IMG/VR virus record: IMGVR_UViG_3300008113_000146
Location: 1 to 52,875 of that record
From: a virus
DNA: 52,875 nt
Direction: 5' to 3' (one strand)
The translations under genes were made by a program, and so were the position numbers. This document shows, piece by piece, positions 2,768 to 27,992 of the stretch. How positions within the stretch are numbered: position 1 is the stretch's first letter; each line of letters begins with the position of its first letter. Below the pieces are notes generated by a model. It saw only the letters and a list, made by a program, of their open reading frames with translations. It made no database searches and was not told where the DNA came from.

Positions 2768-3379
2768 TTAAGCAAGGAACCAATCACCATGCTTATATAC
2801 CCAGTCAATATGTGAGTATTTAATACCGCTTGTTACGGGTCTTGATGTATATAGTTCATTTTCTAAAATAGGTAGAATGTAGAGTGTATTCTCTTCAGGC
2901 TTAAATTCAAAGTTAATCTCTTTGCCATCTTTTTCTAATAGTACTAGCTCTCCGCCTTCCCATTCTCCAAAATAAAATATAGCTAAGTATTCAGCACTAA
3001 TCCAGCTGCCTTGGCCAAAGGTTTTAAGATCGTCACCAGGACGTACTCTATTAACACTCTTGTGCTCATTAGTCCAATACTCTGGCATAATCTCATCAAT
3101 AAATGTTGATATAAAGTGTTCAATTTTTAAATTTGTACTAATTTTTCCCTGGAAGTAAGATCCTACTGGATGAGTATTCCAATTTTCGTCAGGAAGATCT
3201 TCTGCTTGATATTTAATGAAGTTTAGATCTACTAAATCAAGAAAATTCTTTTTTGCAAGTATGCCATGACCAATATCTTCATATCCAGGCTTTTCATGCA
3301 TTTTTGTGTGAACTTGTACCAGAAACTCTGGAAGCTCCTCATTTAAATTAGAATCTTCGTTTGGAACTAGATCAACCAT
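2768..3379 (-). CDS. 2OG-Fe(II) oxygenase-fold protein lacking iron ligands (203 aa)
   Basis: The C-terminal half has the scaffold of the prolyl-4-hydroxylase-like double-stranded beta helix: RPGDDL (113-118), YLAIFYFGEWEGGELVL (131-147), FKPEENTLYILP and PVTSGIKYSHIDW. In the family an HxD motif follows the RPGD strand and a distal His precedes VTSG. Here the first position reads TFGQGSWIS with no His, and the distal position is YTSRPVTSG. Both iron-binding elements therefore appear lost, so the protein may be a non-catalytic partner or may bind a ligand. Its start shares a base with the stop of the intact oxygenase gene upstream (TAATG), so the two are made together. Confidence 0.7.
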   Translation of the reverse strand: MVDLVPNEDSNLNEELPEFLVQVHTKMHEKPGYEDIGHGILAKKNFLDLVDLNFIKYQAEDLPDENWNTHPVGSYFQGKISTNLKIEHFISTFIDEIMPEYWTNEHKSVNRVRPGDDLKTFGQGSWISAEYLAIFYFGEWEGGELVLLEKDGKEINFEFKPEENTLYILPILENELYTSRPVTSGIKYSHIDWVYKHGDWFLA

Positions 3380-3939
3380 TATAAGCTCCCCTTATCAACT
3401 AAAAATGAAGCATAAGCATATCTTATGCCAGATGTAACTTTTGCTACACCGTGTCTAATTAAAGCACCATGAATTAATAAATCTCCAGGAACTGGTTTAT
3501 AAGACATATTTAGTCCAGGGTAGTAAATCTCTCCGCCATCAAAATCGTCAGTTATATATACTACAACTCCGTATCTTGTTATTGCACATGTACCCATATC
3601 GTCATTTGATGTAGGCTCCATGTCTCCGCAAGTATCTTCATGCTCATGCATAGAGTCGCCAGGCAACATTCTTGTAAAAGATGCATTTGGAGTAGGCTCA
3701 TAATCTGGAGCGACTAGTTCACCAATCTTTTTGTTAATAGGCAAAAGCTTTTGAATGTATGGACTAGTTTTCCCGTTATACCAGGCATTAGCATTTTTAA
3801 TTGTATTCCAGTCCTCTTCAGTTAGACTGTTGGCTGTATCTAGTAAAGACTCAACCTCTTCTTGAGATAGAAAATTTCTGTATATCCAAATATCATCATG
3901 TAGTTTTTCTACATTGCTATTGTGATCAAAATTAAGCAT
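3379..3939 (-). CDS. 2OG-Fe(II) oxygenase, prolyl hydroxylase-like (186 aa)
   Basis: Predicted iron- and 2-oxoglutarate-dependent dioxygenase that would hydroxylate a protein or small-molecule substrate. The N-terminal helix region (WIYRNFLSQEEVESLL) is typical of the P4H-like family. Iron ligands are visible as H100-x-D102 (HEHED) and H163 (RHGV), with R173 in TSGIR as the likely 2-oxoglutarate carboxylate ligand. The core strand is VVVYITDDFDGGEIYYP. Its start overlaps the upstream 53-residue ORF by 8 bases, and its stop overlaps the next start. The substrate is unknown. Confidence 0.85.
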   Translation of the reverse strand: MLNFDHNSNVEKLHDDIWIYRNFLSQEEVESLLDTANSLTEEDWNTIKNANAWYNGKTSPYIQKLLPINKKIGELVAPDYEPTPNASFTRMLPGDSMHEHEDTCGDMEPTSNDDMGTCAITRYGVVVYITDDFDGGEIYYPGLNMSYKPVPGDLLIHGALIRHGVAKVTSGIRYAYASFLVDKGSL

Positions 3940-5925: not shown

Positions 5926-6942
5926 ATGAATATATCTTATTATACGATCAAAGCAGGGCTTAATCCTGCTGTAGGATATGGTTACGCTGGTAAAAATATA
6001 GTTAAATCTTTAAATAATCTAGGATATGAAGTTTCTTATGCTAATCCAAAATCTAATATACAAATAAACTTTACACAACCACATCATTTTAAATTTCATA
6101 AAGGTCAGTATCAAATTGGATACACTCCATGGGAATCTACATCTATGCGACCAGATTGGGTTGAAAGATTTAACCTTTGCGATGAGGTATGGACAACATC
6201 AGAGTGGTGTGCACAGGTATTTAAAGATAATGGAATAACAAAACCAATATATGTTTATAAGCACGGCATAGAAGATTTTTGGAAGCCTAAAAAAAGAGTA
6301 TTAAGAGAAGGTCAGCCGTTAAAGTTTTTACATATTGGAGAGCCCGCACCAAGAAAAGATGCACAGGTAGCGGTAGAAACATTTGCAAAACTTTTTGGTA
6401 ATAATCCAAATTATCATTTAACAATTAAAGCTCATCATTACAATACAACAAGAGTCTATGGGCCAAATAATGAATTTGGAAGTCCAGAACAAGTTTACAA
6501 TAACATAACATTGATAACTGAAGAATATACTGAAGCTGAATTGTTAAATTTGTATTACAGTCATCACGTTCTTATCTATCCGTCCTGGGGAGAAGGATTT
6601 GGGTTTATTCCACTACAAGGATTAGCAACTGGAATGCCAGTTATCTCAACTTATGATTGGGCTCCATATGAAAAATACATTGGTCCTTTAAAATTAAAAT
6701 CTAAACTTACGGATGAGGGTTTGCCAAAGTCTGTTGGAGATCCATACATTGGAAAAATGTTTAAACCAGATAAAGAACATTTAGAAGAACTAATGTATGA
6801 AGCAGTAATTAATTATAAAGCTTATGCTGGATATTATTTTGCTCAGTCGACTAAAATTCATGAAGAGTATAACTGGGATCAGTTGACCAATAATGCTTTT
6901 AAAAGATTAAAGAAAAAATTTACAAAGCCTCTTCCCCTTTAA
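5926..6942 (+). CDS. Family 4-type glycosyltransferase (338 aa)
   Basis: Retaining GT-B fold glycosyltransferase that would move a sugar from a nucleotide-sugar to an acceptor. The N-terminal domain shows YGYAGKNIVKSLNNLGYEV. The donor domain shows FLHIGEPAPRKD (135-145), LITEEYTEAELLNLYYSHHVLIYPSW and GEGFGFIPLQG. The usual E-x7-E motif reads E223-x7-Q231, so the second Glu is replaced. It stands alone between the divergent lysin operon and the ribonucleotide reductase. The acceptor could be virion proteins, DNA or cell wall; the sequence does not say. Confidence 0.85.
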   Translation: MNISYYTIKAGLNPAVGYGYAGKNIVKSLNNLGYEVSYANPKSNIQINFTQPHHFKFHKGQYQIGYTPWESTSMRPDWVERFNLCDEVWTTSEWCAQVFKDNGITKPIYVYKHGIEDFWKPKKRVLREGQPLKFLHIGEPAPRKDAQVAVETFAKLFGNNPNYHLTIKAHHYNTTRVYGPNNEFGSPEQVYNNITLITEEYTEAELLNLYYSHHVLIYPSWGEGFGFIPLQGLATGMPVISTYDWAPYEKYIGPLKLKSKLTDEGLPKSVGDPYIGKMFKPDKEHLEELMYEAVINYKAYAGYYFAQSTKIHEEYNWDQLTNNAFKRLKKKFTKPLPL

Positions 6943-6951
6943 AACGTTGTT

Positions 6952-6960
6952 TGGTAGAAT
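6952..6960 (+). promoter_or_regulatory. Extended -10 promoter before the reductase
   Basis: TGGTAGAAT, identical to the box at 8952-8960. The leader (about 50 bases) contains a small CCGC-AAGG-CGG hairpin and a GAAAAGG ribosome site. Confidence 0.45.
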
Positions 6961-7016
6961 AGGATCTTCACACTAAATTAATCAAACCGCAAGGCGGAGA
7001 AAAGGTAGACTTATAA

Positions 7017-8951
7017 ATGTCAAAAACTATTGCTAACCCATATGAAAATTTCATTGCATTATCAAGATATGCAAGATGGATCTCAGAAGAAAATCGTCGT
7101 GAGACTTGGGGAGAAACAGTAGATAGATATTTTTCTTTTATGCTTAACCACCTTAAGCATAATCATAATTATATTCCAGATGAAAAGCTTGTTGCGGAAT
7201 TAAAAGACGGTGTATTTCAAAGAAACGTCATGCCATCAATGCGCTCCGTCATGACTGCAGGAGCTGCATTAGAAAGAGACAATGTTGCAGGATATAACTG
7301 CTCATTTGTTCCAGTAGACTCACCTCGTTCATTTGATGAGACAATGTATATTCTTATGTGCGGTACAGGTGTAGGGTTCTCTGTTGAATACAAGTATGTT
7401 AATAAGCTTCCTGCCCTTCCAGATTCATTTGAAAAATCAGATACAGTAATTGTTGTAGAAGATTCAAAGCAAGGCTGGGCAAAAGCATATCGTGAACTAC
7501 TTGCTTTGCTATGGACAGGACATATTCCAGCAATCGATGTTTCAAAAGTAAGACCAGCTGGTGCAAGATTAAAGACAATGGGTGGTCGATCATCTGGACC
7601 ACAACCACTTGTTAATCTTTTTGATTTTACAATTGCAAAGTTTAAGAATGCAGCAGGTCGTCAGCTAAAGCCAATTGAGGCACATGATATTATGTGTAAG
7701 ATTGGAGAAGTTGTTGTTGTCGGAGGTGTTCGTCGTTCAGCAATGATTTCACTTTCTAATATTAATGATATTGAGATGGCAGCAGCAAAGTCAGGTAACT
7801 GGTGGGAAAACAATACACAACGTGCATTATCAAATAATTCAGTTGCTTACTCTCGCAAACCAGAGATGGAGCAATTTATAGCAGAATGGAAAAATCTTTA
7901 TGATTCAAAATCAGGAGAACGAGGTATATACAATGTGGCCGCAGCTCAAGCCCAAGCAGCCAAGTATGGAAGAAGAGATCCAGATATTCACTACGGAACT
8001 AACCCGTGCTCAGAAATTATTTTACGTCCTTACCAGTTTTGTAATCTTTCAGAAGTCGTATTACGTGAAAAAGATACAGTTGAGGAGGTTGCAAACAAGG
8101 TACGCCTTGCAACGATTCTTGGGACATGGCAATCAACACTAACAGATTTTAAGTATCTTCGTAAAATTTGGAAAGACAATACTGAAGAAGAGCGTTTACT
8201 AGGAGTATCGCTTACAGGTCAGTTTGGCCATAAGTTCTTTTCTGGAAAACAAGATATTAATAAGCTTGAGCAGACATTGTCTGGTCTTCGTGAATATGCA
8301 AGAACAATTAATACAGAAGAGGCTGGGAAAATTGGGATTCCTGAGTCTGCAGCAATTACATGTGTAAAGCCTTCTGGAACAGTATCTCAATTGGTCGGGG
8401 TATCTTCAGGAATGCATCCATGGCATTCACCGTATTACATTCGTACAGTACGTGGCTCAAAGGGAGATCCAATCTCTACATTCTTAAAGGAAGTTGGTAT
8501 TCCAGTTGAAGATGATGTAATGAAGCCAAATGATACTTACGTATTTTCATTTCCAGTAAAAGCACCAGAAGGTGCAATTGTTAGAAATGATTTAACAGCA
8601 CTAGATCATCTAAATACATGGCTAGTTTATCAACGTGCATGGTGTGAACATAAGCCTTCAATTACAGTTTCTGTAAAAGAAGAAGAGTGGATGGAAGTTG
8701 GTGCTTGGGTTTATAAGCATTTTGACGAGGTATCAGGAATTTCATTCCTACCGCATTCAGATCACACTTATAAGCAAGCTCCATACCAGGAAGTTTCAAA
8801 AGAAGAATACGATGCCTTGCTTGCACAAATGCCAAAGTCTATCCGTTGGGAAGACTTGTCATTCTACGAGACAGAAGATGGAACATCTACCAATGCTACG
8901 CTAGCATGCACATCTGACGGCAATTGTGAGATTGTGGATATATCCGCTTAA
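7017..8951 (+). CDS. nrdJ: Class II adenosylcobalamin-dependent ribonucleotide reductase (644 aa)
   Basis: Reduces ribonucleotides to deoxyribonucleotides, supplying dNTPs for phage replication; class II enzymes use adenosylcobalamin and need no separate radical subunit. Visible hallmarks are C95 in GYNCSFVPV, the glycine-rich MCGTGVGFSVE, the NPCSEI loop with the thiyl radical Cys331 and Glu333, the partner Cys342 (QFCNLSE) and a C-terminal cysteine pair C631/C637 for re-reduction. It resembles the monomeric triphosphate reductase type of Lactobacillus, which is nearer 740 residues; this one is compact. No cobalamin riboswitch fits in the 74-base upstream gap. Confidence 0.92.
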   Translation: MSKTIANPYENFIALSRYARWISEENRRETWGETVDRYFSFMLNHLKHNHNYIPDEKLVAELKDGVFQRNVMPSMRSVMTAGAALERDNVAGYNCSFVPVDSPRSFDETMYILMCGTGVGFSVEYKYVNKLPALPDSFEKSDTVIVVEDSKQGWAKAYRELLALLWTGHIPAIDVSKVRPAGARLKTMGGRSSGPQPLVNLFDFTIAKFKNAAGRQLKPIEAHDIMCKIGEVVVVGGVRRSAMISLSNINDIEMAAAKSGNWWENNTQRALSNNSVAYSRKPEMEQFIAEWKNLYDSKSGERGIYNVAAAQAQAAKYGRRDPDIHYGTNPCSEIILRPYQFCNLSEVVLREKDTVEEVANKVRLATILGTWQSTLTDFKYLRKIWKDNTEEERLLGVSLTGQFGHKFFSGKQDINKLEQTLSGLREYARTINTEEAGKIGIPESAAITCVKPSGTVSQLVGVSSGMHPWHSPYYIRTVRGSKGDPISTFLKEVGIPVEDDVMKPNDTYVFSFPVKAPEGAIVRNDLTALDHLNTWLVYQRAWCEHKPSITVSVKEEEWMEVGAWVYKHFDEVSGISFLPHSDHTYKQAPYQEVSKEEYDALLAQMPKSIRWEDLSFYETEDGTSTNATLACTSDGNCEIVDISA

Positions 8952-20041: not shown

Positions 20042-21661
20042 ATGGGAAAAAAAGTTGGTAGAAGAGCACAGTTATCTGGTGACTTTGAACTTCCAGTTCC
20101 ACCTATCAATGTAACATTAACTGATGTTGGAACAAACCGTCCATTTAATAATGCATCAGGAGTTGTTTCTTTTGAATATCCTCCAAATCAGCTACCAATT
20201 ATTAGCTATACAGCTGTAATTAATTGTGGTGCACAAGGAACATTTACAGAAGTTGGTACATCTTCTCCAATTACAATTATTGGTATACCAGCAAATGCAG
20301 TAGGTACAGCAAGAGTAACTGCAACTAACGCAAATGGAACATCTGATCCATCACTACCTTCTCTTTCTACTACATTTACAACGGTTCCAGCAGCTCCAAC
20401 TGGTGTTACTGCTTCTTCCACAACTACTGGCCCAGACCATAGCACAGCAGGAGATCAAACTACCACCCCAGGACAACGTGGACAAGATACTGTTACATGG
20501 AACGCTCCAAATAACGGTGGAAAAGCTTTAAGCAAATATATTATTACATCCTCAGACACAACAGTGCAACCAGGAGGATTATCATCTCCATACGAAGTTG
20601 TTGGAAATCCACCTGCAACAACAATTAACATTAGAGAAACAATGGCAAGTTCTCAAACATACACAGTTGTCGCTGTAAATGCTAATGGAAATTCTTTAAG
20701 CGCATCTTCTGGACAGGTTACAACATTCTTTTCCCCTCCATCATTCTTTGCACCTCCTAACTTCTTTGCCCCACCTAATTTCTTTGCTCCACCAAACTTC
20801 TTTGCGCCACCAAACTTCTTTGCCCCACCAAACTTCTTTGTGCCGCCACTATTCTTTGCACCACCAAACTTCTTTGTGCCGCCACTATTCTTTGCACCAC
20901 CATCATTCTTCACGCCACCAAGATTCTTTGCACCACCAGATTTCTTTGTGCCACCTAACTTCTTTCTTCCACCAGCATTTTTTGCTCCTCCGAGATTCTT
21001 TGCCCCTCCAGGCTTCTTCTCGCCTCCAAGATTCTTTGCCCCTCCAGGCTTCTTCTCGCCTCCGAGATTTTTTGCTCCTCCGAGATTCTTCTCACCTCCT
21101 AGATTCTTTGCACCGCCAACATTTTGTATTCCAGAAAATACAAATGTTTTAACAAAAGACGGTTACAAGAAAGCAAAAGATATCACAACAGAAGATACAT
21201 TGGTAACTGTTTTGTTTGATAATATTCCAGAAGGCGATCCAGCATGTACTGTCGGAGACATTACTAGAAGCTGTATTGAAGACGTTGCTTCTTGGAAAAC
21301 TATTGATTTAGGAAATCCAACATATAATGAATCAAAGGTATATAATATAACTGAAAGATTACACGAATATGTTGTAAGAATTAATAATGATGAAAAATAT
21401 GAGCTGTCTCAGAACGAACAAATTTTAGTTAAAAGAGATGGAAAATATATTTTGCCAGAAACAATAGATCTTAAAATTGGAGACGAAATTGTTTCATATA
21501 ACAATAATTCAATAGAATTAATTTTTATTGAAAATATTGAAACAGTTCCAAAGGAGTCAAAGGTATTTTTGATATATAGAGAACCTTGGGGACTCCTTGT
21601 AGCCGAGTCTATGCTTGCATATAACGGATGTAATGTTAATCAAACACCATTGACTAACTGA
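20042..21661 (+). CDS. FnIII-like, FFxPP-repeat and Hint-domain virion protein (539 aa)
   Basis: Three parts are visible. Residues 1-228 hold two fibronectin III-like beta domains (YTAVINCGAQGTFTEVG..., APTGVTASSTTTGPD...). Residues 229-360 are 22 uninterrupted hexapeptides of the form FFxPPx. Residues 362 to about 530 form a Hint (intein/hedgehog-like) domain: it begins at a Cys (CIPENTNVLTKDGYKKAKDI), has the ELSQNEQILVKRDGKYI and LKIGDEIVSY strands, and ends LLVAESMLAYNGCN. In self-splicing inteins the second block has T-x-x-H and the end has H-N before a nucleophile. Here these are S-Q-N-E and Y-N-G-C, so full splicing is unlikely. It lies directly before the oxygenase run. Confidence 0.75.
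   Translation: MGKKVGRRAQLSGDFELPVPPINVTLTDVGTNRPFNNASGVVSFEYPPNQLPIISYTAVINCGAQGTFTEVGTSSPITIIGIPANAVGTARVTATNANGTSDPSLPSLSTTFTTVPAAPTGVTASSTTTGPDHSTAGDQTTTPGQRGQDTVTWNAPNNGGKALSKYIITSSDTTVQPGGLSSPYEVVGNPPATTINIRETMASSQTYTVVAVNANGNSLSASSGQVTTFFSPPSFFAPPNFFAPPNFFAPPNFFAPPNFFAPPNFFVPPLFFAPPNFFVPPLFFAPPSFFTPPRFFAPPDFFVPPNFFLPPAFFAPPRFFAPPGFFSPPRFFAPPGFFSPPRFFAPPRFFSPPRFFAPPTFCIPENTNVLTKDGYKKAKDITTEDTLVTVLFDNIPEGDPACTVGDITRSCIEDVASWKTIDLGNPTYNESKVYNITERLHEYVVRINNDEKYELSQNEQILVKRDGKYILPETIDLKIGDEIVSYNNNSIELIFIENIETVPKESKVFLIYREPWGLLVAESMLAYNGCNVNQTPLTN
20726..21121 (+). repeat. 22 tandem 18-bp repeats encoding FFxPPx
   Basis: In-frame array of 18-base units, each encoding Phe-Phe-x-Pro-Pro-x, with x mostly Ala/Ser/Val then Asn/Arg/Leu/Gly. 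The 3' units (from about 20990) alternate FFAPPG/FFSPPR in a higher-order 36-base pattern, a sign of recent unequal duplication. Confidence 0.95.
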
Positions 21662-21685: not shown

Positions 21686-22324
21686 ATGATATATAATAAA
21701 CAGCAATTATATCCAGGAATCTGGAGATATCCAGACGTATTTAAAAAAGACCTAAATTTAATTGAAAGAATTGAAAAAGAGGTCTCTTTAGATAATACTA
21801 AATGGAATAAGGCTCAAGTTTCACTAGAAGAAACAGATTTAAATTACAGAGACTGCCAAGACTTTAAATTATCTGCTTTAGGTAAAGAGCATGATTTATA
21901 TAAAGATATATATAATTGTCAAAAAGATCCAGTAGAAGACTTTTGCAGTATGTATTCAATTAAAATGGATTTTTGGGAATGGACTAATATTATTAAGTAT
22001 TATCCAAACCAATTTTTTGAAGAACACGCTGATGATGGATGGTCTTATAAATGTGCCGTTTCATTAGTCGGATATCCAAATGATGGTTATACTGGCGGAG
22101 GCCTATATTTTCCAAAATTTGATTTATTAGTAGAGCCAAAACTTGGAGATTTAATTATATTTCCATCTTCATTTATTTACTCTCACGTTGCTTTACCAGT
22201 AGAGTCGGGAATAAAATATTGTTTTGTAACAATGCTTGATTATAATGATGATGCACATACAGAAGAATATGATAAATATATAGATATAAAATACAAAAAA
22301 GAAAGAGAATATTATGCTACCTAA
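21686..22324 (+). CDS. 2OG-Fe(II) oxygenase, prolyl hydroxylase-like (212 aa)
   Basis: First gene of the nine-gene run. Predicted dioxygenase that uses 2-oxoglutarate and O2 to hydroxylate a substrate. Iron ligands H114-x-D116 (EEHADD) and H167 (YSHVALPV), and K177 (ESGIKY) where 2-oxoglutarate would bind. Core strands VSLVGYPNDGYTGGGLYFP and EPKLGDLIIFPSSFIY. The usual GGEL reads GGGL here. It begins 24 bases after the FFxPP protein gene and overlaps the next gene by 11 bases. It is most similar to the next protein, so the pair looks like a duplication. Confidence 0.85.
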   Translation: MIYNKQQLYPGIWRYPDVFKKDLNLIERIEKEVSLDNTKWNKAQVSLEETDLNYRDCQDFKLSALGKEHDLYKDIYNCQKDPVEDFCSMYSIKMDFWEWTNIIKYYPNQFFEEHADDGWSYKCAVSLVGYPNDGYTGGGLYFPKFDLLVEPKLGDLIIFPSSFIYSHVALPVESGIKYCFVTMLDYNDDAHTEEYDKYIDIKYKKEREYYAT

Positions 22325-23054
22325 TGCTGAAACAATTTATCCTGGAATCATTGTTTATAGAAATGTTTTTCCAAAGGAGTATGAATTTGATAGAAGGCTA
22401 GAAGCCGTGCTCTCTAAAACTCAAGGCAAGAAGCATTGGAATTTAGCACAGACTGGCTATGATACACTAAACAAGGATTATAGAGACGCCTGGGATTTTA
22501 AAATTAAAGAGCACGATGGTGGATCTTTAATGCTTGGTAATGGAAACTTTGTTGAGCCAAAAGATTTTACTGAAGATGAAATTGAATTAAGACAAATCTG
22601 GAGAGAAGCAAAGTCTCTTCAAATGGCTGCGGTAGCAGACTACATGCAGATGTTTCAAATCCCACCACTAAACTATTGGGAATCTTTTAATTTTATTAAG
22701 TATGCAAAAGACCAACATTTTAATGTTCATTCAGATCATGGATATTCTTATGTTTGTGTGCTTTCTTCTGTAGGATATATTAACGATGATTACGAGGGTG
22801 GAGAGCTTTTCTTTGACAAGCTTGGGGTTAGTGTAAAACCAAAAGCTGGCGACCTATATTTATTCCCATCATCCTTTATATATTCTCATGCTGCAATGCC
22901 AGTAAAATCAGGAACAAAATATGCAATTGTTACAATGTTAGATTATCAAGAAGCTCCTCATACACCGCTATATAGAGAAATTGAAGCAAGCTACGAATAT
23001 AATCATACAACTGAAGGGAAGAAGTTTAAACCAGCAGAACAAAGGGACAGATAG
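22314..23054 (+). CDS. 2OG-Fe(II) oxygenase, prolyl hydroxylase-like (246 aa)
   Basis: Paralogue of the preceding oxygenase, sharing YPGI, YRDxxDFK, a YW/FWE strand, FPSSFIYSHxAxPVxSG and VTMLDY. Iron ligands H139-x-D141 (HSDHG) and H192, with K202 (SGTKY) as the likely 2-oxoglutarate ligand. It has the intact NDDYEGGELFF core. An extra loop near residues 70-95 makes it longer than its sister. The next gene begins at the base after its stop codon. Confidence 0.85.
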   Translation: MLPNAETIYPGIIVYRNVFPKEYEFDRRLEAVLSKTQGKKHWNLAQTGYDTLNKDYRDAWDFKIKEHDGGSLMLGNGNFVEPKDFTEDEIELRQIWREAKSLQMAAVADYMQMFQIPPLNYWESFNFIKYAKDQHFNVHSDHGYSYVCVLSSVGYINDDYEGGELFFDKLGVSVKPKAGDLYLFPSSFIYSHAAMPVKSGTKYAIVTMLDYQEAPHTPLYREIEASYEYNHTTEGKKFKPAEQRDR

Positions 23055-23753
23055 TTGATTAATTTTGATGCCTATAAGACTGATGGGCCAAAAACAATAT
23101 TGTCGCCGCTAAAATTGCAAAGAGATTGGATGCAAGACAACGAATATTCATATAACTGCTTTCCTTTGTCTTTAGCAAATAAATTGGGTTGGGGTATTTC
23201 TTTTCCAGAAGACATATCGTTTGTTTGGAATGATAGCAACAATGAGTCTGGCATAGAGATATTAAGTGGTGAAGAGTATTGCTATTTTGATCGTGGAGAA
23301 TCTGTAATTTGTTTTCCAACTGATCTTGTTTTTAAAACAAATTCAGATCTAAGCATTTTAACAATGCCAGTGCCAAACCAGATCATTGATGGTGTGCAAT
23401 GCTTAACTTCTGTAATATCATCTTCTTTTTATACAGCAGGATTCCAGGTAATATGGAAAGTTTTAACTAAAAATAAGGTTATTACTATTAAAGCTGGCAC
23501 ACCAGTAGCAGCCATAATTCCAATATCTTTATCTGTATTAAACGATTCTTCAATAACAGTTCACGATAAAACCATTCCAGATCAAAAGCATAATCAAGAC
23601 TATATGAAAAAAATGAAAGAATATAGTATAATTAAAGACAGGTTTACTGGCTGGTATAAAAATGCCACAGATCAGTACGGTAATATAATTGGCGAGCACG
23701 AGACAAAAAGCATAAAGCTTTATGTTATAGAAGAAAAGAAAAAAGATGATTAA
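23055..23753 (+). CDS. DUF6065-family protein (232 aa)
   Basis: Contains the family pattern KLQRDWMQDNEYSYNCFPLSLANKLGWGISFP (residues about 20-50) followed by SFVWND, matching DUF6065 as I remember it. Function unknown. The second half is beta-rich (TMPVPNQIIDG, FQVIWKVLTKNKVITIKAGTPVAAIIPISL), cupin-like in feel. The start is TTG, placed immediately after the preceding stop, with AAAGGG upstream. It overlaps its paralogue downstream by 8 bases. Its place inside an oxygenase run suggests a role in the same process. Confidence 0.7.
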   Translation: MINFDAYKTDGPKTILSPLKLQRDWMQDNEYSYNCFPLSLANKLGWGISFPEDISFVWNDSNNESGIEILSGEEYCYFDRGESVICFPTDLVFKTNSDLSILTMPVPNQIIDGVQCLTSVISSSFYTAGFQVIWKVLTKNKVITIKAGTPVAAIIPISLSVLNDSSITVHDKTIPDQKHNQDYMKKMKEYSIIKDRFTGWYKNATDQYGNIIGEHETKSIKLYVIEEKKKDD

Positions 23754-24459
23754 TATAGATGTCTACAAGATTTCAGACGACTCTGCAAATATTGAACCAC
23801 TTTCTGCAAAGAGAGACTGGATGGATGCAACCGATCATAAGCATGCATATAGATGTTTCCCATTAACATTAACTAACCAGCTAGGCTGGGGAATTTCTTT
23901 TCCAGAAGACATAACTTTTATGTGGGACGGAGTAACAAGTACATCTCCAGATAATGTTAAAGTTCTTCAAGGTGAAAAGTACTGTGAAACTGGAAGAGGA
24001 CATGCAACAATTAATTTTAAAACTAATTTAACAATTAGAACAGATTCTAATCACAGCTTATTATCTTTTCCAGTACCTAATAGCTTTACAGATGGAGCAA
24101 GCGCAGTTACAAGTATTTTAAGTACATCTTTTTTTGAAGGCACATTACCAGTAGCATGGAAAATTACAAGGCCATTTGTTCCAATCACAATTAAAGCCAA
24201 CCAACCACTTATTGCTGTTATGCCAATATCTCTTACTGATCTTAATAACTCTACAGCTAAAATGTATCCAGGGTATATGGCTCCAGCAATTGAAAGAGAA
24301 ATCCCATTGACACTAGAAGGTGCAATGGAGGCAGCAGCAAAAGCAAATGCAGAGGGAACCTGGACAGACTACTATAGAGAAGCCGTAGATTACATGGGTA
24401 ACAAACTTGGAAACCATGAGGTTAAATCAATTAAATTAAACGTAGAGAAGATGCTATAG
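23746..24459 (+). CDS. DUF6065-family protein, paralogue (237 aa)
   Basis: Close relative of the preceding protein: SAKRDWMDATDHKHAYRCFP, LTLTNQLGWGISFPEDITFMWDG, SFPVPNSFTDGASAVTSIL and VPITIKANQPLIAVMPISL align along the length, and both end with DYxGNxLGxHExKSIKL. Function unknown. The two copies differ mostly in the N-terminal 15 residues and in an Ala-rich helix (LEGAMEAAAKANAEG). Its stop TAG overlaps the GTG start of the next gene by one base. Confidence 0.75.
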   Translation: MINIDVYKISDDSANIEPLSAKRDWMDATDHKHAYRCFPLTLTNQLGWGISFPEDITFMWDGVTSTSPDNVKVLQGEKYCETGRGHATINFKTNLTIRTDSNHSLLSFPVPNSFTDGASAVTSILSTSFFEGTLPVAWKITRPFVPITIKANQPLIAVMPISLTDLNNSTAKMYPGYMAPAIEREIPLTLEGAMEAAAKANAEGTWTDYYREAVDYMGNKLGNHEVKSIKLNVEKML

Positions 24460-25172
24460 TGAAGATTACATTTAACTCAAATAGAATTTATAATAGCGAA
24501 AAAACAGCTCCTCTTCCCGCAAGAAAAACAACACCTTTTTGGTTTGCAAATGCTAGCAAGTACTGGACAGACGAAAATAACGAGCCACTCGTAATGCCTC
24601 CAGATAATTTAAAAGGACCAGGGTTTAAATCGTGTCCAGCCTTACATGATATTTTTTCAACAGGCTACATGTTTACAACTCCATGTGACGTTAGTGTTTT
24701 TAAATACGAAGGTGTCCCATATGTTCAACCAGAGCAGGGCTTTGAAGACTTTTGCGAGATAAGAACTCATATGGGAGAATTTCATTACCCAGAGGGTTAT
24801 TATAGATACAGTTATCATTGGTATCCAAATTGGGGGTTTACGTTGCCAGAAGGATACAGCGCCTTAGTGGTTCACCCAATAAATCACTTTGAGTTACCAT
24901 TTTTAACAACTGCGGGTATAATTGATAGTGACAGGTATGGAGCCCCAGGACTTACACCATTTTTTATTAAAGATGGTTTTCAGGGAATTATTCCTAAAGG
25001 AACTCCATACGCACAGATAATTCCTTATAAAAGAGAAGAGTGGACATCGGAGTTCAATCTTTTTACAAATGAAGAAATGATGAAAAGACATGAGGCTCAC
25101 GCAAGCATATATAGAACAAAGCCTGGCGGAGTATATAAAAAACAAACATGGGTTCCAAAAAAATATGAATAG
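24459..25172 (+). CDS. Conserved phage protein, possibly DUF6065-related (237 aa)
   Basis: Starts with GTG in a TAGTG junction. No named family is certain. The layout (KSCPALHDIFSTGYMFTTPCDVSVF, then HPINHFELPFLTTAGIIDSDRYG and GFQGIIPKGTPYAQIIPYKREEW) echoes the DUF6065 pattern of a conserved Cys-Pro near the start and a late P-x-G-x-P-x-A-x-I-I-P strand, so it may be a distant relative. Similar proteins occur in marine phage genomes. No catalytic motif is evident. It completes the three-gene block between two groups of oxygenases. Confidence 0.6.
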   Translation: MKITFNSNRIYNSEKTAPLPARKTTPFWFANASKYWTDENNEPLVMPPDNLKGPGFKSCPALHDIFSTGYMFTTPCDVSVFKYEGVPYVQPEQGFEDFCEIRTHMGEFHYPEGYYRYSYHWYPNWGFTLPEGYSALVVHPINHFELPFLTTAGIIDSDRYGAPGLTPFFIKDGFQGIIPKGTPYAQIIPYKREEWTSEFNLFTNEEMMKRHEAHASIYRTKPGGVYKKQTWVPKKYE

Positions 25173-25185
25173 GAAGGTAAAATAA

Positions 25186-25854
25186 ATGCAAGAAAATCCA
25201 TCAGATGTAAGAAATCATAGGACGTCAATTACGCCTTCAGGGTATTTTGGTTCTAGTAAAGATCATATTGTTGAAATCGAAAATTTTTTAACAGACGAAG
25301 AGTGTGAATATCTTTTAAACTTTATTAAAAATAATACAATTTGGGACGGCGGCCAGGATGTTGTTAATGAAAATGGTACTGTTATTTATCAGCACAACGT
25401 ATGGAAAGATAGAGTTGCAACAAAAGCTTCTTTAGAAAAGACAGATACAAAAGTTGTAGAAATGCTAGATGATATTATTAATAGGTTGAAGCCAATTATT
25501 GAAGATCATTTTGATGTTGAAGCTTATCCTACAGGCCCATGTTTAGTTAGATGGCCAGTTGGTTCAATGCAATGGCCACATGCCGATAAAGAATTGCATG
25601 AGGGTCCAGATGCAGGACAACCAGGTAACTTCCCATGGTATGATCTTGGAACTATCTTTTATTTAAATGAAGACTATGAAGGCGGACGACTTCATTTTCC
25701 AAAACAAGATGTTGCAATTAAGCCTAAAAAGAAAGCAGCATATTTTTTCCCAGGTGATTTAAATTACATTCATGGAGTTGATGTAATTACAGAAGGTGTA
25801 AGATATACTTCGCCTTGGTTCTGGACAATTAGTAAGTTAGGAAGAGATAAATAA
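25186..25854 (+). CDS. 2OG-Fe(II) oxygenase, prolyl hydroxylase-like (222 aa)
   Basis: Iron ligands H132-x-D134 (WPHADKE) and H196 (IHGVDV), with R206 (EGVRY) as the 2-oxoglutarate ligand. Core FYLNEDYEGGRLHFPKQDVAIKPKK. The N-terminal helix region IVEIENFLTDEECEYLLNFI is the standard P4H start. AAGGTAAAA ribosome site in a 13-base gap after the previous gene; the stop TAA overlaps the next ATG. It is closer to bacterial P4H proteins than to the 21686/22314 pair. Substrate unknown. Confidence 0.87.
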   Translation: MQENPSDVRNHRTSITPSGYFGSSKDHIVEIENFLTDEECEYLLNFIKNNTIWDGGQDVVNENGTVIYQHNVWKDRVATKASLEKTDTKVVEMLDDIINRLKPIIEDHFDVEAYPTGPCLVRWPVGSMQWPHADKELHEGPDAGQPGNFPWYDLGTIFYLNEDYEGGRLHFPKQDVAIKPKKKAAYFFPGDLNYIHGVDVITEGVRYTSPWFWTISKLGRDK

Positions 25855-26696
25855 TGAGTCAGTTTACAACAAAAACACTTTATCCAAGAATCGAAGTGTA
25901 CAAGGGTTTATTGCCAGATCACAAAGAAATTTTTGAGGTAATTAAATCAACCGAAAACAATACTGGAGAACACTACTTCAACCCTTGGACTAGATGGAGT
26001 GCCTTTGGAACGTATGCGGGAACAAAATTTAAAGGCGCCATACAAGATCGTCTTGGAGAGAATGAAGTTTTTGATAAAGAATATTGGGCAGCTGAAACAG
26101 TATATGATGCTTACAATATAGCAATTAAAGATTATATTGAAAAATATAATGTTGAATTGCCAGATAAGTGTGAGCTAGGATCTTCTTCTTTTTGCAAATA
26201 TGATACAAATGTTGATGCATTAAAAAATAATCTAACAATGCAATATCATACAGACTTTAAGCAAAGCGAAAAAGAAATGCCAGGAAAACAATTTTTCTTA
26301 ACCTGTACTGTTTATATCAATGATGATTACGAAGGTGGAGAGATTGAGTTCTACGTCGATGGCGAATTTGTGCCAGCCTATAAACCAGAAGCTGGGGATA
26401 TTATGGTGTTTCCTTCAACAGAACCATACTATCATGGCGTAAGAACAGCTACAAGGGGAAATAAGTATTTAATTAGAAACTTTATGATTTATCCATATCC
26501 AGGATCTAAGGAGTGGTTAGAAAATCAAATTGAATACGGGGCAGTAAGATGGGCCGAGATGGAAAAGAAAAGAATTGCTGCCGACATATATGGCGGTAAT
26601 TTAGTATTTAAAGATGGAGTTAAGGTAGAGCCAACAGAAAAAGAAATAGAAGATAGGTTGGACTATATTGAGAAAGCAGAAAAGGACGAATACTAA
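25854..26696 (+). CDS. 2OG-Fe(II) oxygenase, prolyl hydroxylase-like (280 aa)
   Basis: Longest of the eight. Iron ligands H132-x-D134 (YHTDF) and H194 (YYHGV), with K204 (RGNKY) as likely co-substrate ligand. The core strand VYINDDYEGGEIEFYVDGEF has an insert after it. The tail after residue 215 is a charged helix (RWAEMEKKRIAADIYGG, ending in an acidic/Lys-rich stretch), possibly for partner binding. Coupled on both sides by one-base TAATG overlaps. Confidence 0.87.
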   Translation: MSQFTTKTLYPRIEVYKGLLPDHKEIFEVIKSTENNTGEHYFNPWTRWSAFGTYAGTKFKGAIQDRLGENEVFDKEYWAAETVYDAYNIAIKDYIEKYNVELPDKCELGSSSFCKYDTNVDALKNNLTMQYHTDFKQSEKEMPGKQFFLTCTVYINDDYEGGEIEFYVDGEFVPAYKPEAGDIMVFPSTEPYYHGVRTATRGNKYLIRNFMIYPYPGSKEWLENQIEYGAVRWAEMEKKRIAADIYGGNLVFKDGVKVEPTEKEIEDRLDYIEKAEKDEY

Positions 26697-27403
26697 TGGA
26701 AGTTGTAAGCTTAAAGGATGATGTTTTTGTTGTTGATAATTTAATAACAGAACAAGAATGCAAGTCAATCATAGGATACCTAGATGGAATTGTTGCTGCT
26801 GGTTATTTAGACTGGAATCAAATTTCTTTTTACGGATCATTTGCTATGGGATACTGGCCTCACGACGATAATCTTTTGCTTTTTGGACTTCCAAGAGATT
26901 ATTTTTCACAGCTAAAAGAAAAAATTAAAAAGGCTGGCGAAGAGTGTTTTGGAAGAGAGCTATCAGAGGTAAGCTACCATGCTCAAAAGTGGGTAGTTGG
27001 AGCCTTTGCTGGATTCCATTCAGACAACACTCATGAAGATGGAAGGCCATCTGCTTTTTATAAAAGTAAGTATGCGGGGTTTCTGTATTTAAATGATGAT
27101 TTTGAAGGTGGTGCTTTAAACTTTAAACATCATGATATTACAATCAAACCAAAGCCAGGAAGACTGGCCTTCTTTAAGGGCGGTTATGGAAATGAGCATG
27201 AGGTAACTACAGTTCAAAAGGCAGAGAGATATACCGTTGGATCTTTTTGGGATAACGCAGATGCAGTATATACCCCAGAGCAAGTAGCAGAATGGGAAGA
27301 AGAGTTAAAGGAAACAAGAGCAGCTCAAGAAGAAACATATAAGGAGTGGGAAGAATCTACTAAAAAAGGTATGATTCCACAGTACAAGGGCAAATATGAT
27401 TAA
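26696..27403 (+). CDS. 2OG-Fe(II) oxygenase, prolyl hydroxylase-like (235 aa)
   Basis: Iron ligands H108-x-D110 (FHSDNTHEDG) and H168 (NEHEV), with R178 (AERY) as co-substrate ligand. Core YLNDDFEGGALNFKHHDITIKPKPG. The usual FPS before the distal strand reads FFKGG. The C-terminal tail is a charged helix (EWEEELKETRAAQEETYKEW). It starts in a TAATG overlap and overlaps the next gene by 8 bases. Confidence 0.87.
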   Translation: MEVVSLKDDVFVVDNLITEQECKSIIGYLDGIVAAGYLDWNQISFYGSFAMGYWPHDDNLLLFGLPRDYFSQLKEKIKKAGEECFGRELSEVSYHAQKWVVGAFAGFHSDNTHEDGRPSAFYKSKYAGFLYLNDDFEGGALNFKHHDITIKPKPGRLAFFKGGYGNEHEVTTVQKAERYTVGSFWDNADAVYTPEQVAEWEEELKETRAAQEETYKEWEESTKKGMIPQYKGKYD

Positions 27404-27992
27404 AGAAATTTTGCATCCAGATATTTATTACTATAAAAATATTATTCCAAATCCTAATGATATTGTAAAAGAAATTGAGGAGATGGATCAATACCAAAAG
27501 TTTGGCTCTCAAGTCTCTAAATGGGAAACGTGGACTCCACACTCTAACAAAGATGTGGTGTTTGGGAAGGTTAAACATTGCTATTTAAATCTATTTGCAA
27601 ACGATACAGATGCAGATAGGCATAACTCAAAATTAATGGGTATGCTTACTTACCTTGCGCTTACAATGGCAGAAGAATATGCAAAAGATCATGACATTGA
27701 ACTAGGATATTTGCCAGTATATTTTGGATTAAACAAGTATAATGTTGGTGTTGAAATGGGTCCTCATATGGATTCTGGCTACGGAGCAGATGACAAATCT
27801 ACAGTTTCAATGGTTATATACTTAAATGATGACTATGAGGGCGGAGAGATTGAATTTCCAGACCACAATATTTTATTAAAGCCAGAGGCAGGAAGCGCAG
27901 TTGTATTTCCATCAGTAGGTTGCTTGCATGATCCAAAAGCTACTGTCAATGGGACAAAATACATGGTTCCGCTATTTTTCTTCAAAAGATAA
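27396..27992 (+). CDS. 2OG-Fe(II) oxygenase, prolyl hydroxylase-like (198 aa)
   Basis: Last gene of the run. Iron ligands H124-x-D126 (PHMDSG) and H178 (LHDPKATVNGTKY), with K188 as the likely 2-oxoglutarate ligand. Core MVIYLNDDYEGGEIEFPDHNILLKPEAGSAVVFPS is near the family consensus. It starts 8 bases inside the preceding gene. The following LamG gene has its own -10 box, so the unit may end here. Confidence 0.87.
   Translation: MIKEILHPDIYYYKNIIPNPNDIVKEIEEMDQYQKFGSQVSKWETWTPHSNKDVVFGKVKHCYLNLFANDTDADRHNSKLMGMLTYLALTMAEEYAKDHDIELGYLPVYFGLNKYNVGVEMGPHMDSGYGADDKSTVSMVIYLNDDYEGGEIEFPDHNILLKPEAGSAVVFPSVGCLHDPKATVNGTKYMVPLFFFKR

Follow-up and report, generated by a model that had tools for sequence, protein, structure and literature searches.

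The window, that is, the whole stretch of DNA analyzed here, is a 52,875-base virus fragment from IMG/VR (IMGVR_UViG_3300008113_000146). On its plus strand, nine tightly packed genes occupy positions 21686-27992, directly behind a gene, R, whose product contains tandem aromatic and Pro-Pro repeats. An earlier note on this DNA had described the nine genes as six intact prolyl-hydroxylase-like enzymes and three DUF6065-like genes that look like a dedicated modification pathway; R was absent from its account. We recovered all nine open reading frames (ORFs), with junctions of -11, 0, -8, -1, +13, -1, -1 and -8 bases (overlaps are negative), and the description of the genes held for all of them.

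Six of the genes encode 2-oxoglutarate (2OG)-Fe(II) oxygenases. All six matched PF13640, and each has an HxD...H triad and a Lys or Arg. In order, they are ox1 (21686-22324; H114, D116, H167, K177; PF13640 at 1.4e-6), ox2 (22314-23054; H139, D141, H192, K202; 1.3e-11), ox3 (25186-25854; H132, D134, H196, R206; 26.5 bits), ox4 (25854-26696; H132, D134, H194, K204; 1.6e-9), ox5 (26696-27403; H108, D110, H168, R178; 8.9e-11) and ox6 (27396-27992; H124, D126, H178, K188; 9.1e-11). Five of them exceeded the Pfam cut-off and ox3 was half a bit short of it (26.5 vs. 27). Between ox2 and ox3 are the three DUF6065 genes, duf1 (23055-23753), duf2 (23746-24459) and duf3 (24459-25172). The first two exceeded the Pfam cut-off for PF19541 (1.9e-28 and 1.4e-32). 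The third, a divergent relative, had no Pfam match; it matched phrog_7084 (4e-33) and was homologous to DUF6065 by profile comparison (hhalign, E = 1.8e-11). Three such genes are unusual, as most relatives have two. It seems that duf1, which is present in few relatives, is a local duplicate, probably of duf2.

The repeat protein R

R (20042-21661, plus strand) has an Fn3-like region at its N-terminus and a Hint-like tail at its C-terminus; between the two are 22 FFxPPx hexapeptides in tandem (20726-21121). The F, F, P and P of the hexapeptides are invariant, while the codons and the x positions vary and 19 of the 22 DNA units differ. Therefore, the pattern is held at the protein level. Among 94 non-redundant R homologues, the sixth position is mostly Gly, which gives Pro-Pro-Gly, a favored context of collagen prolyl 4-hydroxylase (P4H). 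With less than 4% of the residues of the 40 window proteins counted, R carries 25 of their 38 Pro-Pro pairs. A collagen-type Gly-X-Y substrate was also considered and dropped, as none was present among the window proteins.

The window contains a structural cassette of the tailed-phage type (portal, head protease, tape measure and minor tail), whose head protease shares about 44% identity with its counterparts in large Streptomyces siphophages. The position of R inside this cassette points to a virion protein. Several R orthologues have fn3 matches above the Pfam cut-off, and orthologues also match phrog_38766 (virion structural protein). Judged from these sequence matches, R is a probable virion protein.

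Two further features of R and its homologues were observed. A Hint/intein-like end is common (window 21125-21658; L416, L437 and L474) and starts with a Cys right behind the repeats; its Pfam matches (Hint_2/Intein_splicing) are weak and were obtained in orthologues only. Such a domain suggests that the repeat stalk might process itself. In addition, the same Fn3 protein carries FFxPPx, FFPP, GFSPF/APFGAF, GAF or FYNYYN tracts in different loci (L060 and L411-L490, e.g. L434, L436 and L474). Phages seem to exchange this tract as a module.

Conservation of the six oxygenases and their likeness to prolyl hydroxylases

The earlier note had proposed looking for the same gene block in related phage contigs. 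Across 176 related loci on viral contigs, the order R - ox1 - ox2 - DUF6065 - DUF6065 - ox3 - ox4 - ox5 - ox6, or a variant of it, was kept and was flanked by the same genes. The iron ligands and the Lys/Arg were invariant or nearly so in every class, with 33-141 non-redundant orthologues per class. The ligands were kept in 32-33 of 33 orthologues of ox1, 128-129 of 129 of ox2, 141 of 141 of ox3 and 79 of 79 of ox5; for the metal ligands, the counts were 78 of 78 in ox4 and 65-66 of 68 in ox6, the loosest class. The 2OG-binding residue was class-specific, being Lys in ox1, ox2, ox4 and mostly ox6, and Arg in ox3 and ox5. This is the picture expected of six separately needed active enzymes. By sequence, ox1-ox6 all appear to belong to the prolyl-hydroxylase group of the 2OG-Fe(II) oxygenase superfamily, whose hallmark is an HxD...H iron triad in a double-stranded beta-helix; the model of ox2 described below agrees with this.

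We compared ox2 and ox3 with proteins of known structure. The ox3 profile matched prolyl 3-hydroxylase 1 (6.8e-12) and Bacillus anthracis P4H (2.2e-11) in the PDB, and the ox2 profile matched B. anthracis P4H. For the AlphaFold model of ox2 (pLDDT 91), the first Foldseek match was an algal P4H with a (Ser-Pro)5 peptide, followed by Pseudomonas putida P4H with EF-Tu, B. anthracis P4H, PHD2 with a HIF peptide and the P4H of the chlorella virus PBCV-1. These profile and model comparisons suggest that the nearest relatives of known function, for ox2 and ox3, are enzymes that hydroxylate peptidyl proline.

Coupling of aromatic-Pro-Pro repeats to the oxygenase array

As a control that is blind to both repeats and enzymes, we scanned IMG/VR with the Fn3 region only. 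Among the 80 loci obtained, 68 had enough downstream sequence. Three to eight oxygenases were found downstream in all of those with aromatic-Pro-Pro (aromatic-PP) repeats (51/51), and none or one in all of those with other repeats, i.e. single-Pro GFSPF/APFGAF, GAF and FYNYYN (17/17). DUF6065 was present in 51/51 of the former vs. 4/17 of the latter. When all scans were pooled and near-duplicates were removed, 95 Fn3 proteins remained. Each of the 77 with PP repeats had two to eight oxygenases and all had DUF6065; the other 18 had zero or one oxygenase, and four of them had DUF6065.

Two DNA scans of IMG/VR used only the repeats (three successive FFxPPx units, or [FY]FPP units) and were blind to the neighbors. 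Among the matches listed, 101 repeat genes had at least 4 kb of downstream sequence; an oxygenase was found within 2.5 kb downstream in 86 of them and a DUF6065-like gene within 4 kb downstream in 77. An upstream oxygenase was present for one of 69 repeat genes, and the same oxygenase measure gave 185 of 536 for the other ORFs of these loci, again among the matches listed. These loci themselves had supplied the sequences for the oxygenase profile, and the independent PF13640 gave a similar picture. We also checked 50 contigs that had no oxygenase in the piece examined, and PF13640 was found elsewhere on the contig in 34. Repeat proteins without the Fn3 region (e.g. L131, L155, L159, L169, L179 and L329) likewise precede oxygenases and DUF6065.

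A tree of the upstream structural gene comprised 67 rows, i.e. 66 loci and the window. Oxygenases accompanied PP repeats in 28 of 28 rows, with three state changes, and PP repeats of different types (FFxPPx, FFPPFFPF and [FY]FPP) occupied three distinct regions of the tree. Among the 39 rows without PP repeats, 30 had no oxygenase, and several of the remaining nine sit behind other Pro-rich low-complexity proteins, e.g. PGNPGNPG...NPP. Counting independent origins by clustering the N-termini of the repeat proteins was uninformative, because nearly all of them share Fn3-like regions. Judged from gene neighborhoods, a hydroxylase gene and a repeat-protein gene appear to be linked beyond chance in one virus.

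In four loci (L103, L114, L116 and L117), oxygenases and DUF6065 stand behind Pro-rich low-complexity proteins, either of the PGNPGNPG...NPP type or rich in His, Pro and Asn. These partners hint at further substrate types.

DUF6065 genes

Foldseek compared the AlphaFold model of duf3 (pLDDT 92) with the PDB, and all 50 matches listed belonged to the dUTPase/dCTP deaminase superfamily. The best E value was 6.1e-4 and the TM-scores were low (~0.3/0.5). By eye, the GIIDxD and GTPxxQ motifs kept in the family resemble two dUTPase motifs, and no other dUTPase motif was identified; the Tyr after the second Asp is absent. At the sequence level, duf3 had no match in the PDB. A dUTPase-like fold is predicted for duf3 from the model, with weak scores. 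The duf3 homologues of haloviruses, which should have the same fold by homology, are annotated as hypothetical and sit between thymidylate synthase or ribonucleotide reductase (RNR) and tail genes.

Of 278 DUF6065-like genes in the phage blocks, 268 came directly after ox2, ox1 or a further DUF6065. We also surveyed 385 bacterial genomes of one class, that of a Rhodobacteraceae metagenome-assembled genome, and thus of Alphaproteobacteria. DUF6065 was present in 45 of them. In at least four proteins (L372, L378, L382 and L397), it was fused to a C-terminal 2OG-type hydroxylase domain. This bacterial partner is of the Cupin_8/JmjC type, whereas the phage partner is of the P4H type; duf1 and duf2 exceed the same PF19541 cut-off as the bacterial proteins. 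These fusions, together with the adjacency to ox1/ox2 in phages, favor a partnership with protein hydroxylases. Most observations would be compatible with DUF6065 binding the repeat protein or presenting it, and a nucleotide role is possible. A DUF6065 DNA signature had five matches in bacterial genomes, and none of the four genomes checked had PF19541. In the part of the literature searched, we found no paper on DUF6065.

Other genes of the window

Two more 2OG-fold genes had been reported by the earlier note at 2768-3939, on the minus strand. This was true of oxB (3379-3939), a separate oxygenase outside the block that keeps an intact-looking triad and matches phrog_61 (1.9e-11). It did not hold for oxA (2768-3379), which lacks the HxD and the second His and matched no family in our searches. 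It is possibly a degenerate oxygenase-like protein and, being paired with the intact oxB, may be its pseudo-enzyme partner. Upstream of the fibre genes, a glycosyltransferase (phrog_2170, 1.1e-60) lies next to an RNR (window 5926-8951); it could act on hydroxylated residues.

Discussion

The conserved gene order, the catalytic residues kept in each class, the prolyl-hydroxylase-like structure and the near-perfect coupling to the adjacent aromatic-PP repeat protein support the idea of a dedicated modification pathway. We consider it likely, from these comparisons of genes, that the block encodes a phage system for hydroxylating one particular protein, the adjacent R, which is probably carried on the particle.

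In the course of events that we infer, R, the proposed substrate, and the enzymes would probably be made together as late proteins. ox1/ox2, helped by DUF6065, and then ox3-ox6 would hydroxylate the aromatic-PP tract (FFxPPx here and [FYH]FPP in relatives), with each oxygenase class probably acting at its own repeat position or atom. The DUF6065 proteins, usually encoded behind ox1/ox2, might serve as accessory, docking or chaperone subunits. For the phage, the benefit of the modified tract would be a stalk on the particle that is stiff, hydrated and perhaps adhesive or open to glycosylation.

Several observations weigh against this interpretation. The loci are related by descent, which the Fisher p-values do not take into account. 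The structural-gene tree has only three repeat-state changes, and the Fn3 tree only three contrasts with good support. Whenever the second trait differs within a contrast, the direction is the same, and a sign test cannot reach significance because there are only three of them. Of the 50 repeat-protein contigs checked, 16 had no PF13640 at all. Most of these are shorter than 15 kb and three are longer than 30 kb (L243, L307 and L331); the F/P stretch of L243 and L331 makes up a small portion of a protein with ~900-1000 residues. A lone oxygenase can also be found near repeat proteins that lack PP, and a DUF6065-like gene without an oxygenase stands behind some R-like genes without PP repeats. 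The neighbors of solo bacterial DUF6065 genes revealed no common hydroxylase. Finally, the haloviruses HRTV-7 (L491) and HF2 (L492) have a duf3 homologue near thymidylate synthase or RNR, and neither genome has PF13640.

The oxygenases might instead hydroxylate a protein other than R, either of the host (e.g. EF-Tu) or of the virion, in which case the link to R would reflect shared cargo of a late operon. The block and R are syntenic, so joint travel is possible, and the Foldseek neighbors of ox2 include the P. putida P4H complexed with EF-Tu and the B. anthracis P4H, which modifies EF-Tu. However, within one R family the array tracks the repeat type and not the presence of the gene, and repeat proteins without the Fn3 region are coupled to oxygenases likewise. 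A repetitive substrate would also account for five or six paralogues better than a single site would. We therefore regard another target as unlikely.

A second alternative is modification of nucleotides or DNA bases by TET/JBP-like oxygenases together with the dUTPase-fold DUF6065. The predicted dUTPase-like fold of duf3, the position of its halovirus homologues, the RNR in the window (7017-8951) and a weak Tet_JBP match of ox2 (0.004, below the cut-off) would agree with it. We consider it improbable, as ox2 and ox3 match prolyl hydroxylases and not TET or AlkB, and the block lies inside a structural cassette and its presence tracks a protein repeat.

It could also be that the repeats are modified and that some or all of the enzymes act on Phe/Tyr or on the variable residues instead of Pro. 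Aromatic residues beside PP are kept in every repeat type, and the classes differ in Lys/Arg and in sequence, so their chemistries may differ. Nevertheless, the closest structures are prolyl hydroxylases, and the aromatic-rich R homologues without PP (FYNYYN, GAF and GFSPF) have no array, which makes action away from Pro improbable as well. It is very improbable that the block consists of auxiliary metabolic genes tuning host 2OG or nitrogen metabolism, the usual view of phage 2OG oxygenases (e.g. PMC4164917) and the category of phrog_61 in PHROG, because such a role predicts neither six conserved classes, nor the structural-operon position, nor the DUF6065 pairing, nor the coupling to repeats.

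The cyanophage 2OG-Fe(II) oxygenases (phrog_61) belong to the same broad enzyme family as the ox genes. Where annotated, the ox2 matches in cyanophages adjoin primase/helicase or recombination genes, unlike the structural-cassette block described here. The P4H of PBCV-1 hydroxylates proline-rich repeat peptides of viral proteins. It is, to our knowledge, a single enzyme of an algal virus, without an array or DUF6065. Like the enzymes here, it is virus-encoded, and it was among the best structural matches of ox2 (PDB 5c5t); its repeats differ from the aromatic-PP repeats. Mimivirus carries collagen-like proteins and the enzymes that modify them (PMC9546862). It thus resembles the present case in that genes for repeat proteins and for hydroxylases occur together in one virus. 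The mimivirus system consists of Gly-X-Y collagen and lysyl/prolyl hydroxylases in a giant virus, in contrast to aromatic-PP repeats and an operon of six P4H-type classes in a tailed phage. Searches of named phages with the block DNA, duf2, an FPP-type DUF6065 and the R N-terminus gave no match, and the full array with DUF6065 and the repeat partner was seen in none of the named phages searched. In the literature searched, which was only a part of it, we found nothing relevant on hydroxyproline or P4H in tailed phages. Outside phages, there are known cases of a virus hydroxylating repeat proteins of its own; what we propose from these genes is a tailed phage with aromatic-PP repeats and a six-class array.

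A broader picture can be put forward tentatively, and we hold it to be possible but doubtful. In this picture, an assembly line widespread among phages would use five or six specialised prolyl-hydroxylase-type enzymes and a repurposed dUTPase fold (DUF6065) to make the aromatic-PP tracts of virion stalks heavily hydroxylated, like collagen or mussel glue. This would make DUF6065 a partner of protein hydroxylases in general, also in bacteria.

With R, these results provide a likely substrate for phage oxygenases of a kind usually called metabolic, and the genes look like tailors of the phage particle. They also lead us to propose a first fold and a first connection to hydroxylases for DUF6065. 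They further suggest that there are tailed phages whose structural repeats are heavily hydroxylated. If this is true, such phages would be a source of prolyl-hydroxylase-type enzyme sets that have co-evolved, together with the repeat substrates that match them.

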